Part shown: in pieces, positions 5,288 to 63,911 of the stretch
Layout of the letters: each line of letters opens with the position of its first letter
Position numbering within the stretch: the stretch's first letter is position 1
Translations under genes and position numbers: made by a program
Source of the DNA: Liolophura sinensis
Lineage: Eukaryota; Mollusca; Polyplacophora; Chitonida; Chitonidae
DNA length: 64,000 nt
Reading direction: 5' to 3'
NCBI RefSeq assembly: GCF_032854445.1
Contig: NC_088300.1
Span: 31,291,608-31,355,607 of the forward strand
Notes under the pieces: generated by a model
Database searches by the model: none
The model's input: the letters and a program-made list of their open reading frames with translations, nothing else
What the model was told of the DNA's origin: nothing

Positions 5288-7978
5288 ATGGACTCGAGAC
5301 GAAAAAGTGTGGACCAAGCGTTCAAAATGTTCGAAGTTCACGGGGACAGTGAGTATCTGGGAGAAGCAGTGTCCAAAACTCAGCACAGCTTACAATGTGC
5401 CAGGTTAGCGGAAAAGGAGCGCAGAAAGCCTGAGGTAAGACAAATAACACTTGAAACCTATTACTGTGAAACCTGATAATCTGGGAAGATTGAGAGCTTT
5501 GTTCTTATTGAGGTGGTTTCTAACAGCTTGTGTTATGAATGATTAGATACATGGTACATTTTAACCACAGTGATGACTATCTATTGGGGTAAGCGTTGTT
5601 CAGGGAACACAAGATAAATATTTCTTCACCGGGATTGTTCTCACGACATTAGACCATTACCACTGACATCAAGATTTAAACGTGGTTCAAATTATACCCA
5701 TTTAGCACACGCAAGCAGCCTATATATATCTTCAGTCGAAAATAAGCCATCGGGTGCTCCTTAATCGTTTTCTGGTATGAGACATCTTTGCTGCTTTTTT
5801 CTGTTATACCTTATTCTGAAGGGACATCAGGATTTTTTTCTTTTCCATCAAAATTCGTCAGCAACTTTGAATTATGATGATACGTTGGAGAAATGGAGTA
5901 TATAGGCTACATGAGGTAAAGAGGTGACGAAATTCATCGAATGATTATGGTCCTCGATCCTTTCGATTGATTGAATCGATTTTTTATGCGATTCCCAGTT
6001 GACAAGTGAATATCTCACTGAAATATATTTTTTAAAAACACTATCGTGCCGTACTATCATTACCACTGATTACTACTACTAATGTTTTGAAGGTTGTTCT
6101 TGTGGAACTTTTCTGGTGCTCAATTATGTCTATGTACAGTTCTCCATTTTGATGATTTCAAGACTAGGTTTGAAGGAGGCCTCGGGAGAAACGAGTTTCT
6201 GGAATAAGATGGTGGCCTATTCAAAGCGTAGCGCCTTGTATTACAGTTCATACACTTTGCGGTGAGAAGTCTTTTCGCTGAAGGCTGTACACCTAGTACA
6301 ATGTACACTGTATCCTTGTTAGTTGATATATGTTCAAGTTTAACTTTTTGACACAGGTTTCTTTCCTCTGCACCATTTCAGTATAGGTATATATACCACA
6401 TATCACGTGCAGCAAGGGAAGCAGTGCTTATAAGTTGAGCGTTGGATTTTGGATCAGGAGGACCAAGTTCAAATCCCGGGATAACCCATAGATTAAATTC
6501 CTCAGCTTTGCACAACATCTGAGTTATACCATCGGCTCGATGCCTTCTTGGTGACAACTTTCCTATCTCTGCATTTAACTAAACGGTATGTAAATAATCG
6601 GTAATGTGTTGGTATATAGGTAGTACTCGGGGCCCTGTTTCACGACATCGGCCACCTGGTGGGACTGGACAAAGGATTGGACAGGATGGTGACGGGAGGT
6701 GTGGACCTGGGGGCCAAGAACCACGACACCGTCGGCGAAGAATTCCTCAAGAACCTCGGCTTCCCGTCTCCTATCACAGACTTTGTGAAGGGACATGTTC
6801 AGGCCAAGAGGTATCTGGTCGCGAAAAACAAAGAGTACTACAACAGTGAGTATACAGGCACTCGTGCTTACATAGAAACTTCACACGCGCAAATTATTCA
6901 CATAGGTACTATTTAGAAGAAAACAGGTAAAGTGTTCAGATAAAGACTCTGATTTAGCAAGCGGCTATTGGATTTAGCGCTATCAAAGAGTTTCTGGTGG
7001 CTAACAATTACGTAAGTTTGAAGGATGAGAAGTGCTTTATTGGTTGTGTCAGAAAGGAATCGATACATCTCCAATAACGACTATAATATGACTTTTTTCA
7101 AGATGTCATGGCTTTTGAATCCTTGCTTTGAATTTGTATCTATCGTGAAACAAAAAGTGCAATGTATTTTGCGTCGTTCTCCGCCATCTTATTCTGTGAT
7201 TTCATTGTAGGAAAGGTAGAATGTTTAACATGTATTTCACACTGGTGTTCGATCGAAAGTTTCAGTGGGAAATATAAGTATGGTGTCAGTTGATCGCTTC
7301 GAAGAGGTTTCTTGACTCCTGTTTTGGACATTCATGACTGAACAAATGAGGCACATGTATCTCACCCCGATCGATAATGAACACGATGCAGCTTGAAATG
7401 CATGAACCCACAGCACGGAATATATAGGCCCATATGGTTTATAGCATGGCTATCGGAACATCATACCAAATTGGATGTATCGTTAGAGTTGACCAAGGTG
7501 TAATTACAGGCGTTAAACCACGTATTAACTTCCGTCTAGACGAAAGTTCCACTCACTTTGCACTCAGATGACACAGATAATAAATTTTGAACTTGACCTT
7601 TTAAACATGATATACTGGATCTGTCGGAATGACGAATCTTACCAAAATGGTAATGCTTCTCGAAATCAGATCACAAGCCCTTTACCACATGAGCTATACT
7701 TAACCTTAAGCCACAAAAGCCGTCCGTCCTTTTTCTGTTTCTCTTATATTGTTATAGGCCTATCAGAAGCTAGCAAGCTGACGTTGCTCCACCAGGGCGG
7801 GCCAATGACAGAGGACGAGGCTCAGACATTCGAGAAGCATCCTCAATTTGAGGACCTTGTGAAAATGAGGACATGGGATGACCTAGCCAAAGACCCCGGA
7901 TGCGAGACTGAGCCGATGGAAAAGTACCAAGAAATGGCGTACAACTACTGTACCAATTATGGCTCAAACTTCATGTGA
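5288..7978 (+). CDS. PhnZ-like HD-domain mixed-valent diiron oxygenase (aminophosphonate C-P bond cleavage), 3 exons
   Basis: Exons 5288-5434, 6620-6845 and 7758-7978 join in phase with GT-AG introns to give 197 residues, close to the roughly 190 of bacterial PhnZ. Visible motifs in order: YLGEAVSKTQH (residues 23-33), LFHDIGHLVG (55-64), KNHDTVGEEF (82-91), KGHVQAKRYL (106-115), LLHQGGPMTEDEA (134-146) and MRTWDDLAKD (161-170). These supply the iron ligands H33, H57, D58, H84, H108 and D165, plus Y23, E26, H61 and K112, which by my recollection of the PhnZ structure are the latch and substrate residues. PhnZ oxidises 2-amino-1-hydroxyethylphosphonate to glycine and phosphate; this substrate is inferred here. 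The alternative is the related inositol oxygenase (MIOX), but the protein is too short and the GGPM segment fits PhnZ. No signal peptide is seen, so it is probably cytosolic. Confidence 0.85.
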
Positions 7979-18800: not shown

Positions 18801-20734
18801 TTCTACGTGGAACATGAATTCACCATGAATTGCTACAACCCTTTTAAGTCCTCAACATTTTCGCACATGAAAGAGCAATGTTCAGCGCGAGTCATGCACC
18901 TTTTACATATGATTTTGCCACGAAAACCACATTAATTGGGTTGTCCAATTCCAGGGCCTCACAAAAAGCCATATCTTCATCAGCTCACATAAAACAATTC
19001 AGAATATGCTTGAATTAATATCTTAATACAAACATACAGGGCGCCTGAGGACTTATCTAGATTCTACTGTACTTGTACCATTATGACAATGAAAACAATG
19101 CAGTGGGGCACCTGCTCAGTACTCACAGCCAGTAACAGGAACAGGACATTTATGAACTTTGTGCCAGTGTACAGCAGCTGCACAGTACTTTGTGCTATTG
19201 TACACCAGCTGCACAGTACTTTGTGCCAGTGTACAGCAGCTGCACAGTACTTTGTGCTAGTGTACAACAGCTGCACAGTACTTTGTGCTAGTGTACAGCA
19301 GCTGCACAGTACTTTGTGCCAGTGTACAGTAGCTGCACAGTACTTTGTGCTATTGTACACCAGCTGTACAGTACTTTGTGCTAGTGTACACCAGCTGCAC
19401 AGTACTTTGTGCCAGTGTACACCAGCTGCACAGTACTTTGTGCTAGTGTACAACAGCTGCACAGTACTTTGTGCTAGTGTACAGCAGCTGCACAGTACTT
19501 TGTGCCAGTGGACACCAGCTACACAGTACAGTGTGTCAGTGTACACCAGCTGCACAGTACTTTGTGGCAGTGGACAGCAGATGCACAGTACTTTGTGTCA
19601 GTGTACACCAACTGCACAGTACTTTGTGCCAGTGTACACCAGCTGCACAGTACTTTGTGCCAGTGGACATCTGCTGCACAGTACTTTGTGCCAGTGGACG
19701 CCAGCTGCACAGTACTTTGTCCCAGTGTACATCTGCTGCACAGTACTTTGTGCCAGTGTACATCAGCTACACAGTACAGCGTGCCAGTGTACAGTATCTG
19801 CACAGTACTTCGTGCTAGTGTACAACAGCTGCACAGTACTTTGTGGCAATTGTACAGCAGCTGCTTTAATTTTATACAGTCATTAGCCCATTGCTGTATA
19901 GCTGTCGCAGTGCTGTATGGGTTGTTGCATATACTGTATTATTGCACTGTACTGTATTACTATTGCACAGTACTGTTTGGTTGTCACACAGTACTGTGTG
20001 ACTGCTGTACAGTACCACAATCTTTAAAGCTGTATGGTATTGTGAAAGGACATTTCTGCTTAGTTCTGTAAATTGTCTACATATAAACAGTACTGTGTTG
20101 TGCAAGTTTTGCTGTGTCGTCGGCTTTGATCGCTTTTTTTTGTCTCACTTTGTTTTTCAATATTTTGCTTTCCTGATACAACAACTGCTTCTGCTCACAT
20201 CTGTTTTGGAAAATCCTTACCCCGGAAATGTTTTTTATCCACCAGAGCAGAAATTAAGGTGGGTATGAATTTCTTTGCTTGTTTCTTATCATCAGATTGG
20301 TCCAAACTGGAAAACAAAGGGTAAAATGAAAGGTATTTAATAGTTAACAACTCCTAACTGCATGCGTCATCCCAACGATAGATATGCTAGCCATTTTTTA
20401 ATGATGCATGTGTGCAAACAATGATACACAGTCCTGTCCCATTCTTCATTAAACACACACTTTGGTCAGTTCACATTACATGAGTGTTATTTATTTATTG
20501 ACACAAACAGGGACATGAGCGTCATCGCCCATGTATTGTCACCAAGGCCCCACCAGCAGTGAGAGTGGAGAAATCAACAAATTCCCTGACCAAGGCTGGA
20601 AATAAATGTTACAGTGACATGGAAAATTTATTATTTAACCCTTCCAATATTAAAATTTAAACACATACACACACGTGTGCTTGTGTGTGTGTGTGTGCGT
20701 GTATATATATAAATATATATAAATTACTAATAGG

Positions 20735-47213: not shown

Positions 47214-47312
47214 ATTGGATGAGTCTCTTTCTCTATGGGAAATTTAATTGGATAACTGAATACGCGCGAAATCGTTTCTAAAAATAGTTGAATCCCTGCC
47301 TAGAGTATAAAA
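47214..47312 (+). promoter_or_regulatory. Core promoter of the H2A gene
   Basis: Two inverted CCAAT boxes (ATTGG at 47214-47218 and 47247-47251) precede a TATA box, TATAAAA, at 47306-47312. The start codon follows 85 bases later, leaving a short leader. This arrangement is typical of replication-dependent histone genes. Confidence 0.75.
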
Positions 47313-47396
47313 GCCCTGAAAACAGTCGTCTGCTTTACTCAACTTTGGAGTTTCTGTCGAAGTGTTCACAGGGCTACTCAAAGTAACGACCGAAAG

Positions 47397-47768
47397 ATGT
47401 CTGGACGTGGGAAAGGAGGCAAGTCTAAGGGGAAAAGCCAGACAAGATCTTCTCGTGCTGGTCTACAGTTTCCTGTCGGCCGAATCCACAGATTTCTGAG
47501 GAAGGGCAATTATTCCAGTCGTGTTGGTGCAGGGGCTCCCGTGTACTTGGCTGCTGTGATGGAGTACTTGACCGCAGAGGTTTTGGAATTGGCTGGAAAT
47601 GCTGCCCGAGACAACAAGAAAAAGACCATCAACCCACGCCATCTGCTACTGGCCGTCCGCAATGACGAGGAGCTGAACAGACTACTGTCTGATGTAGCCA
47701 TTGCCCGAGGTGGCGTCCTTCCCAACATCCAGTCCGTTCTCCTGCCCAAGAAGACGAAGAGATCCTAA
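47397..47768 (+). CDS. Histone H2A, divergent replication-type variant
   Basis: An intronless 123-residue H2A. The signature [12 protein letters not shown] is at residues 21-32, the acidic-patch residues E56, E61, E64, D90, E91 and E92 are present, and the C-terminal LLPKKT ubiquitination segment is kept at 115-120. It packs DNA in the nucleosome as a dimer with H2B. Differences from the near-invariant animal H2A are many: NYSSRVG for NYAERVG in loop L1, KKKTINPRH for KKTRIIPRH in loop L2 (losing the DNA-contact Arg), and IARGGVL for IAQGGVL (losing the glutamine methylated by fibrillarin). It lacks the SQ(E/D) tail of H2A.X and the H2A.Z pattern. The gene stands alone, not in a histone cluster, and has a cell-cycle style 3' end. 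A germline or embryonic variant is possible but not shown. Confidence 0.97.
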
Positions 47769-59945: not shown

Positions 59946-62429
59946 CGAACGCACGCACGCACGCACGCACGACACACTTGATTGGTTAGAAGCATCCATG
60001 GATTCATGTTTAGATAGGAAATGTTGCATATGGTTTTTTGTCTGTTCTTTTGAAGTCTCTCCCGTGATTTTTATTTTTACTTTGTAATGATTATTTTGAC
60101 AAGAAGCCTTAAACATTACTTTGAGCAACGAAAATTAAGACCTACTCCACAGCTTTGTCAAACTGTTTTTCTAAGTTCGTAACTTCCAAAGACATTTATT
60201 GGAATAATAAAGTTAGATATCTGTATCTGAAAAAAAAAACCCCAAGAATAACAGGAATTTTAGACGTATAATCTCTAAGATTTTTGTGTTTGCTAAAGGG
60301 TGGAAAACGAGAAATCGCGTATTGTGTGAATGAATGAGATTTCCTGCTGACTTTGTTAACCGAATGTAGGCATACCTCAACTGGGATGATATGCGCTAAC
60401 GTGAGTTACCATTAGCATAAGACTGTAAAAAAAAACATTTTGGAATTTTCTAGAAGATCTGGGAAGGAATTTATATTCGACGTTAACGGAGACATTAACT
60501 TGAAATGATATAGCCTGCCACGACAGGGCAAAGATCATCTTGTCTAAACAGAGCCCTGTCTTGTTTCCTACGCTTCGCCCAAGGCAGAGCCTTCACAAAT
60601 TCATACTGAGGTATTTGTTTAAATAAAATATCAACACGATCAAATGATGGTTGGATTGAACAGTCCGACGTGACCAGAATATAGCTTAGCGTCTACAAAA
60701 TGGAGAGATTAACTTGTTGGAAGAGTCTTGAATATACATCAATTCGCATAGGCTAACAGAGGTGTGCGGGTCTCTAACAACCCGTGGGACAAGGCGGGTC
60801 CCTTAGTCATTGTCCCCCCTGAAAATCCCATTGAAATGGAGGAACGTGGGAGGCTGTTATAAGGCTTGTGTACTTGGTTAAACAGTCGTCCTCATTAGAC
60901 GCTTAGCTTGTGGCTAAACACGTACGGGTATACCCCCGTTTTTTCAATTGGCGACTCTGAAACTCGCCTATTCCAACACACAGGCCTGTCTCTATGGGTA
61001 ATATAATTTAAGACTATTTTTACAACACGGGGACAAGTGGCTTTTCGAGTGACAGCGATTCAAGGGTGGACTTTTTGTCGGGCACACGGAGAAGACAAAT
61101 ATTTTGAAAAAGCTCTTTTGTTGTCGTACAACACTGGTGAATGGGGTAGACAACTTGTAGGCCACTCACTATTCACATTCATTGCAGGTTTTCATGGATG
61201 GCCTCTCAAGATTTCAAGGGTGCATTGTGAGGTGCCGTGCTTCCCCGTTGTGACGGACCGAGGCAGGACTGCCTACAAGAAGACCGGGCTCTGTGAAAAA
61301 GAGGAACAAGGAACTGCTGCAGAGTAAATGATGGACTTAGCTATCTGACTGAGTCCTGCATCTCCGGGGGGCATAAGCGACAAAACCCCCGAGCGATTAC
61401 TCCAGGCTACAGGCACACAACCGGTAGTTAGACTGGATCAAATTGCCCACTTGTATAAATGGGTCCGTCTCTGAGGGCCGTGAAAAAGGCGCCCCGTCCC
61501 TACTGAGCGTGTATTCAGGGCGGGTCGAGAGACTTGGACACCCCACCTGCCGTTCTAGGGCTTTCCTTCCACCCAAAATTTTAAAGACGGCAGACCTCCC
61601 CGCTGTATTAGGACAGGCACAAAAGCAAGCGATCGAGTTGCAAAGGTGGCTAATGCGTTTCTGGTTTAAACTTCTGACGACGCTAGTTTGATTCCTTTGG
61701 AACGCGCCACGGCCCCAGTTTACCATCATTTACACGGCAGCAATTGGAAGTTAAGCCTCAGATTTGTTTTGCTGGGAGTTAACACGACTTGGAGATATCT
61801 GACGCCTTTCTTCGAGTCAAGCTGTCGATAGATGTGGACAGTCGTGTTGGAACAGCGAGCCAATTAAACGCCTAGGCCTACACCCTTCTGGTCAGCTGGC
61901 CGAAATTACCGGCGTTAATGACAATGTTGTCTGCAGCCATATGTAATCAGGGAGCGCCCGACCAGACTAGACGAACCCTTCCCGAAATGGAGCTCTCATT
62001 GTGTCAGTTGTAATTACAGAGATACCGATCAATCAGTCTTTATGGAGCACTGACCAACTAAATTATCAGTCCAGAAAGAGGGTTTAAAATTCACGGTATT
62101 GGACCAGAACTGTCACAGAGCGGACAGAGCTTAAGCCGTGGAGACGTCATACCATTACACCAGCACAGTGTTTCCCAAGGAACAACTGGAGACAGCAGTC
62201 GTCTTCATGTACGAAAAGTTTGGAATATTATGAGAGTTTTTCACTGAAGCTTTGTGCCTTTTGTAGGAAACTTTGTGTGTGGTGAAAATTGGATGAAATT
62301 TAAAATTCTTCAAAAGATGTTGTTGGATGTGAAAGTGATTCATTTGTAATTCAAGTGAATTTTATAATCTCCTTGACAACGTTGTTTATATAGGATGTCG
62401 TGAATTTGTGCTGTGGATAGATATCAAAC
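59946..62429. other. Upstream region of the GPR75-like gene
   Basis: No conserved coding sequence; the 96-codon frame at 61037-61327 and the frames at 61397-61729 show no family features. The last 250 bases before the start codon are probably 5' untranslated sequence, but I cannot place the transcription start. Confidence 0.45.
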
Positions 62430-63911
62430 ATGGATATGTTAATTGTTGCGAATAGCTCCCCTCCGGTTCAGGAACTTGGAGAAGTGTTCCAAGGAAGCGT
62501 TCACACCGCCACGAAGGCCGTCTGCACAGTTCTCGTTCTATTTGTGCTTTTCCTCGGCTGTTTTGGCAACGCTTTAGTCTTCCTGTCCGCATCGGAACTG
62601 AAGAAACTGCGGTCTAACTTCGATGTGTTTATTCTCAATTTAGCTATGGCGGATTTTTTAATGTGCAGCTGCCTATCACCGGTGTTTTTGTACGTGCTTT
62701 TCGCCGAGCCGCCCTACCCCCGAGTTTTCTGTAGTAGCTTCTTATTCTTAGGCTCCGCTTGTGGACTTCTCTCTTTGTTGACACTGGTCTCAATTGCGCT
62801 CCACCGCCAGGCCCGTGTGGTGGGGCAGACGAAAGGGGCGCTGACCTCGTGTCAAGCGGGGGTTGCTCTCGGCTTTATTTGGACAACCAGCATTGTCTTA
62901 GCCCTCGGAGGCACCATCCATGTCACCCTGAGCTGGCCGGAGACCCAGACCTCCTGTCAAATGATAGTCAACAGTCACGATCGTCTGGTTTACAACTTTG
63001 TCCTCTTCTTCATCGCCCCGGTTTCCGTCCTCAGTTTCATCATCATCGCTATGGCGTACACCGTCATCGCCTGGGCCGTACACAGTCAAAGTAAGACATG
63101 TAGGCCCGCGCAAGGACAGATGCCAAAATCCACCCGGTGGGATGTACAACAACGTCAGTCAACGAACTGTAGCGGGAACGTCAGGGATGTGAAAGCTAAG
63201 CGCACCAGTCCCCACGGAAAACAGGCAGTAGCTGGTCAGTCTCACCTGGATAAAGAAAATAAAGCGATGACCATGTGCTTTGTGGTGACATTGACTATCA
63301 TCTTATGCTGGGGCCCGCTGGTCATCTCGCAGTTTGTAGAACTTTTGGTGGGTGAATCGATTATTCTGTACCAGGTGAAAATATGTGGGATTGCGTTGGT
63401 GTTTCTGAACAGCGCCTTAGACCCGTACATTTACGCTCAATACAGCAGCAAAACCAAACAACGTTACCTCAAGTGCTTCAAAAAGCTTTTGACTTTCGAA
63501 TGTAAGAAAAGTGGCAATCGGATTAGACTACAAAATACGGTGAACGCTAGTCTGAGTGCCATCAAACAGAAATCATCCAACAATGACCAAGAGACGAACA
63601 CTGTTCACCTTGCATCCCCAAAACTCCATAGAAAAGTGTTCATAGATAGGAGCGTGGGACCAGGCGTCCCCTTATCGTACAGAACGGTTTTAGTGAGCAG
63701 TCATTTAGTTCACCCCTATTCAAAGCAACATATGAAAAGCAAATCGAGCTTGGTTATTCAAGGATGCTGTGCCCAGAAGTGTCACTCTCAAATAGAATCG
63801 TGTAAACATATGGACTACAAACAAACAGCAAGGAACTGTCCGTGTTCGTCCCCACCACATTCCAGCTTTTCACCACAACCTAAACAGATGTACAGTGTTT
63901 TACAAACATAG
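62430..63911 (+). CDS. GPR75-like class A G-protein-coupled receptor, intronless
   Basis: 493 residues with seven membrane segments at about 28-53, 64-90, 98-124, 142-164, 187-214, 278-304 and 313-336. Class landmarks: GCFGN (TM1), LNLAMAD (TM2), W151 (TM4), CWGP (293-296, TM6) and DPYIY (331-335, TM7); C101 and C176 can form the usual disulfide. Instead of DRY, TM3 ends IALHRQ (122-127), as in GPR75, whose TM3 ends IALHRL. Other GPR75-like words are HTAT (25-28), NFDVFILNL (63-71), ILYQVKICG (312-320) and, in the tail, the block ETN...SPK...KVFIDRSVGPG (388-412). A glycosylation site NSS is at 8-10. The long third loop is 215-277. In vertebrates GPR75 is reported to respond to 20-HETE or CCL5; the ligand here is unknown. 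Like vertebrate GPR75 the coding region has no intron. No poly(A) signal is visible before the window ends. Confidence 0.88.
   Translation: MDMLIVANSSPPVQELGEVFQGSVHTATKAVCTVLVLFVLFLGCFGNALVFLSASELKKLRSNFDVFILNLAMADFLMCSCLSPVFLYVLFAEPPYPRVFCSSFLFLGSACGLLSLLTLVSIALHRQARVVGQTKGALTSCQAGVALGFIWTTSIVLALGGTIHVTLSWPETQTSCQMIVNSHDRLVYNFVLFFIAPVSVLSFIIIAMAYTVIAWAVHSQSKTCRPAQGQMPKSTRWDVQQRQSTNCSGNVRDVKAKRTSPHGKQAVAGQSHLDKENKAMTMCFVVTLTIILCWGPLVISQFVELLVGESIILYQVKICGIALVFLNSALDPYIYAQYSSKTKQRYLKCFKKLLTFECKKSGNRIRLQNTVNASLSAIKQKSSNNDQETNTVHLASPKLHRKVFIDRSVGPGVPLSYRTVLVSSHLVHPYSKQHMKSKSSLVIQGCCAQKCHSQIESCKHMDYKQTARNCPCSSPPHSSFSPQPKQMYSVLQT

Follow-up and report, generated by a model that had tools for sequence, protein, structure and literature searches.

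Does an animal chromosome encode an oxygenase that cleaves carbon-phosphorus (C-P) bonds, and on which substrate would such an enzyme act? The question is raised by a gene at positions 5288-7978 (forward strand) of a 64,000-nucleotide stretch of the genome of the chiton Liolophura sinensis (NC_088300.1, positions 31,291,608 to 31,355,607; hereafter the window), in which a preliminary description had recognized a three-exon relative of the bacterial oxygenase PhnZ. From its sequence, we consider it probable that this is a nuclear animal gene for a PhnZ-type, mixed-valent (Fe2+/Fe3+) diiron HD oxygenase, which would convert (R)-1-hydroxy-2-aminoethylphosphonate (R-HAEP) to glycine and phosphate and serve in the disposal of hydroxylated 2-aminoethylphosphonate (AEP).

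The three-exon model itself is borne out: both introns are GT-AG, and the joined exons (Table 1) give an intact product of 197 residues. All in-frame GT-AG chains share exon 1 and the start of exon 2, and the alternatives merely trim the joint between exons 2 and 3 by 3-9 residues, such that only the tabulated chain yields both a full-length product and a complete family alignment. A bacterial PhnZ query matched the exons in order on one strand of the window at 31, 59 and 65 bits, far above chance given that no match across 20 shuffled windows exceeded 23.5 bits. In the 609-Mb genome assembly, the joined protein matched just these three exons, which indicates a single-copy gene.

At the level of sequence models, the protein is certainly a member of the PhnZ/TmpB family, whose enzymes are mixed-valent diiron HD oxygenases. 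Against NCBIfam, it matched TIGR03276 ("phosphonate degradation HD-domain oxygenase"; E-value 1.1e-54, 184.6 bits, model positions 3-176 of 179), the TmpB model NF049941 (3e-45, 154.3 bits) and the hydroxymethylphosphonate PhnZ1 model (6.3e-35, 120.5 bits). This pattern across the three models resembles that of authentic PhnZ (190.4, 142.3 and 121.9 bits for the 177-residue fragment of 4mlm), unlike that of authentic TmpB (192.3, 315.8 and 141.5 bits, also for a fragment), and counts for a PhnZ reading. Among solved structures, only PhnZ (4mlm, E-value 1.2e-37) and TmpB (6.7e-33) were matched.

The active site points the same way. Every residue named in the preliminary description is found where it was placed, and each could be paired by alignment with a PhnZ counterpart: Y23, E26, H33, H57-D58, H61, H84, H108, K112 and D165 of the chiton protein correspond to Y24, E27, H34, H58-D59, H62, H80, H104, K108 and D161 of PhnZ. 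In an alignment with 44 relatives, all six metal ligands are present (H33, H57, D58, H84, H108, D165), as is the YxxE lid (Y23-L-G-E26), which aligns with Y24 and E27 of PhnZ and with the Y and E of TmpB. Outside the ligands and lid, H61, K112, S130, Q137-G138-G139 and R162 are conserved in all or nearly all of these relatives, with K112, S130, Q137 and R162 invariant.

Phylogenetically, a tree of 45 proteins grouped the chiton protein with the characterized PhnZ (4mlm) at 99/99 support, opposite TmpB and other TIGR03276 proteins. The PhnZ group also included a Pseudomonadales PhnZ-PhnY fusion, an Aquicella protein, a protein from a Hymenobacter plasmid and several loci read as Pseudomonas. 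This grouping was kept when seven long branches were removed (100/99) and under the simpler LG+G4 model (99), so that membership in the PhnZ subfamily appears likely. Together with the model and structure matches, and with the lack of a match to the model of the myo-inositol oxygenases (MIOX), the tree supports the PhnZ assignment first made from the letters. The closest known system is PhnZ of the bacterium HF130_AEPn_1 (PDB 4mlm, 4mln, 4n6w, 4n71), which is alike in length, HD-domain region, six ligands, YxxE lid and other invariant active-site residues. The two share 38% identity; the chiton gene is nuclear with two introns, its product is a few residues longer in the segment from the HD pair to H84, and it has no adjacent or clearly identifiable PhnY.

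Several observations weigh against this assignment. The protein is under the curated cut-off of all three NCBIfam models, and its TIGR03276 score does not reach the required 214.6, but neither does that of the authentic PhnZ fragment. With TmpB the protein shares 42.5% raw identity over 160 columns, slightly more than its 38.4% over 177 columns with PhnZ, and its terminal branch is long. Approximately unbiased (AU) tests rejected neither a grouping with TmpB (p 0.117, at a cost of 17.8 log units) nor a position just outside the PhnZ group (p 0.339). No PhnY-type or TmpA-type hydroxylase was identified in the genome as a source of alpha-hydroxyphosphonate. Part of this evidence, namely the identity to TmpB and the first AU result, would suit an enzyme with the same C-P-cleaving chemistry but an N-methylated substrate, which like TmpB would turn hydroxylated mono- or trimethyl-AEP into sarcosine or glycine betaine. 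Molluscs are reported to contain phosphonolipids in which the AEP is N-methylated, and the Pseudomonas relatives in the PhnZ group stand behind a flavin adenine dinucleotide (FAD) oxidoreductase that we read, by its translation only, as a PbfD-type N-methyl-AEP oxidase. TmpB of Leisingera caerulea (PDB 6npa) does share the chemistry family, the ligands and the YxxE lid; yet the chiton protein reaches only 154 bits on a TmpB model with a cut-off of 300, where true TmpB scores 316, it grouped with PhnZ and apart from TmpB in every tree, and a TmpA query found no such partner in the genome, although this search had no positive control. Seven positions that separate the PhnZ and TmpB groups cannot choose between them, because the chiton protein carries neither group's residue at six; at the seventh it has that of TmpB. 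Overall, a TmpB-like specificity seems unlikely, albeit worth keeping in mind.

Two further explanations would remove the gene from animal phosphonate metabolism altogether. The generic Pfam HD domain model matches the protein, as might be expected of an HD-domain protein that had departed from this metabolism to act as a phosphohydrolase or, like MIOX, as an oxygenase of sugar alcohols. MIOX is likewise an HD-domain mixed-valent diiron oxygenase, but it lacks the YxxE lid that the chiton protein keeps; moreover, Pfam MIOX (PF05153) gave no match to the chiton protein at E-values up to 1, whereas two tandem MIOX loci (E-values 1.1e-69 and 3.8e-69) lie on another contig of the same genome. An identity as MIOX is therefore ruled out, and with four active-site residues invariant across the 44 relatives, any such departure is decidedly improbable. 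Alternatively, since all relatives in the searched collections are bacterial, the gene could be contaminating bacterial DNA or a decaying fragment. This can be given almost no credence, being refuted in effect by the two introns, the intact frame, the full active site and an 82-Mb host contig that also carries animal genes. The preliminary description had taken the introns as an argument against contamination, and the contig strengthens that argument: the window also holds an intronless rhodopsin-type G-protein-coupled receptor gene and an H2A histone open frame, which mark it as animal chromosome. A long tandem-repeat tract elsewhere in the window is open in several frames of both strands, with cysteine-rich, repetitive translations.

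If the enzyme is of PhnZ type, its likely mode of action can be drawn from the bacterial mechanism, in which the tyrosine and glutamate of YxxE cap the second iron and then hold the substrate amine (PMC8177086). In the chiton protein, the six HD ligands would hold two irons, with Y23 capping Fe2 until substrate binds; E26 would then bind the amine of the substrate, leaving Fe2 open to O2. Abstraction of the C1 hydrogen followed by cleavage of the C-P bond would turn R-HAEP into glycine and phosphate without the need for an external reductant. Most likely, the enzyme would cleave R-HAEP in this way beside PhnW and PhnX, an arrangement sometimes seen for phnZ in bacteria. Its role may be phosphorus salvage and the disposal of hydroxylated AEP, dietary or self-made, a compound beyond the reach of the PhnW/PhnX route.

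The metabolic setting exceeds what the preliminary description had guessed. A multi-exon phosphoenolpyruvate (PEP) mutase gene was found as six exon matches. Joined into 214 residues, its pieces reach 322.5 on TIGR02320 (cut-off 319.55), contain the motif EDK(x5)NS as EDKLFPKTNS, and match structure 1m1b, which we take to be the Mytilus PEP mutase, at 2.4e-127, a closeness that points to a mollusc. Rough joins of exon matches likewise recovered multi-exon genes for phosphonopyruvate decarboxylase (TIGR03297, 368.4 against a cut-off of 312.5) and a PhnW-type AEP transaminase (NF010006, 427.2 against 296). Phosphonoacetaldehyde hydrolase (PhnX) is encoded by a single intronless open frame of 281 residues on a large contig (290.4 bits, cut-off 220), ~210 kb from the MIOX loci; it may represent a separate gene transfer. 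By these matches, the genome encodes the whole AEP biosynthesis route as well as a phosphonatase, which suggests that the animal probably both builds and dismantles phosphonates. These parts have animal precedents, as AEP synthesis genes are described in corals (PMC3640398) and velvet worms (PMC10540779), and bdelloid rotifers have transcripts for an AEP transaminase and a phosphonatase of foreign origin (PMC3499245).

In the known oxidative route, R-HAEP is made for PhnZ by PhnY*. The PhnY-like Fe/2-oxoglutarate hydroxylase that the preliminary description suggested seeking was not found: a bacterial PhnY query returned nothing significant from the genome, with limited power, and the PhnY model NF052437 recognized nothing, but since its controls were also silent this does not establish absence. 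As a measure of sensitivity, comparably diverged bacterial PhnZs detected two of the three chiton exons at genome-scale E-values < 1e-6, so that an equally conserved PhnY probably would have been seen and a more diverged one not. The PhyH family (PF05721) gave fifteen exon matches at ~10 loci, and the best exon match to bacterial PhnY shows 29% identity. The nearest exons belong to a pair of PhyH-type dioxygenase genes, related to each other and ~13 kb apart in opposite orientation, which are about 30% identical to PhnY over 78 residues; these weakly PhnY-like genes are candidates for AEP hydroxylation, and a diverged hydroxylase may therefore exist. Nor need PhnY be present: phnZ in complete bacterial genomes is also part of phnWX clusters (15 cases) and phnWAY clusters (24 cases), and R-HAEP, a compound found naturally in Acanthamoeba, cannot be properly degraded by PhnW and PhnX (PMC8154272). 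The chiton genome shares this combination of PhnW-type transaminase, PhnX and PhnZ.

Among bacteria, the searched genome contigs held one close relative only, the Pseudomonadales fusion, which lies in a metagenome-assembled genome (L004, 3418-4743) and joins an N-terminal PhnZ and a C-terminal PhnY in one 441-residue open frame, much as the PhoF fusion does in a fungus. No relative was found in the viral contigs searched, and the only one in phage records lies at the extreme end of a Pseudomonas phage record, next to attR, where it is probably host DNA. In three PhnZ-group genomes read as Pseudomonas (L089, L090, L091), an ATP-binding cassette transporter set and the FAD oxidoreductase, named from their translations, precede the PhnZ-group gene, and no PhnY was seen among the neighbors read within ~6 kb. 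The C-P lyase phn operon of the Nostoc plasmid pNsp_b (L083) contains an HD-domain oxygenase gene, which is flanked by phnJ and a phnM-like gene.

Table 1. Coordinates of the PhnZ-type gene, of other features of the window and, where prefixed C4 to C10, of loci elsewhere in the genome.
Feature	Position	Strand	Details
Exon 1	5288..5434	+	residues 1-49; start codon, ATG in good context (AAGATGG); YxxE lid; first metal ligand H33; donor GTAAGA, phase 0
Exon 1 residues	Y23 5354-5356, E26 5363-5365, H33 5384-5386	+	
Intron 1	5435..6619	+	GT-AG, 1185 bases
Exon 2	6620..6845	+	residues 50-124 plus one base; three ligand sites plus H61, K112
Exon 2 residues	H57-D58 6641-6646, H61 6653-6655, H84 6722-6724, H108 6794-6796, K112 6806-6808	+	
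Intron 2	6846..7757	+	GT-AG, 912 bases, phase 1
Exon 3	7758..7978	+	rest of residue 125 to 197 plus stop; S130, T133, Q137-G138-G139, R162, W164
Exon 3, last ligand D165	7877-7879	+	
Stop codon	7976-7978	+	TGA
Tandem-repeat tract	19014-20068		
H2A histone open frame	47304-47765		
Rhodopsin-type receptor gene	62421-63908		intronless
PEP mutase	C10:32385213-32392114		six exon matches
Phosphonopyruvate decarboxylase	C6:43710661-43719115		exon matches
AEP transaminase	C6:18598311-18602573		exon matches
PhnX	C4:22411666-22412427		single open frame
MIOX loci	C4:22621205-22632323		two, in tandem
PhyH-type genes	C5:8553101, C5:8566102		opposite strands

Public invertebrate genome annotations probably carry PhnZ-type names transferred from Swiss-Prot, so databases are likely to hold this sequence class already, if unstudied; in the open-access literature searched, no report of an animal PhnZ was encountered. 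The one eukaryotic precedent that we found for oxidative C-P cleavage is PhoF of the fungus Fonsecaea multimorphosa (PMC10574752), which is a bifunctional PhnY-PhnZ fusion, whereas the chiton enzyme is a stand-alone PhnZ domain. What is new here is an animal member of the PhnZ/TmpB family, whose known members otherwise come from bacteria and one fungus; it is set apart from them by its host, by its introns and by a genome that also encodes AEP synthesis and PhnX. Either transfer or ancient inheritance may account for its presence.

Molluscs and cnidarians have long been known to contain phosphonolipids, but the turnover of these compounds in animals is obscure. It is tempting to speculate, though we hold this only tentatively and as rather less than an even bet, that the chiton runs a closed phosphonate cycle, in which AEP would be made from PEP, maybe hydroxylated by an unrecognized PhyH-type enzyme, and its phosphate regained through two independent C-P-cleaving enzymes, PhnX and a PhnZ that would be an old acquisition since furnished with introns. 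A 2023 review described eukaryotic phosphonates as even more cryptic than those of prokaryotes (PMC10574752). With AEP synthesis and two C-P-cleaving enzymes predicted in one genome, animal phosphonate turnover becomes directly testable, and the finding suggests that in the sea the phosphorus of phosphonates may be turned back into phosphate by animals as well as by microbes.
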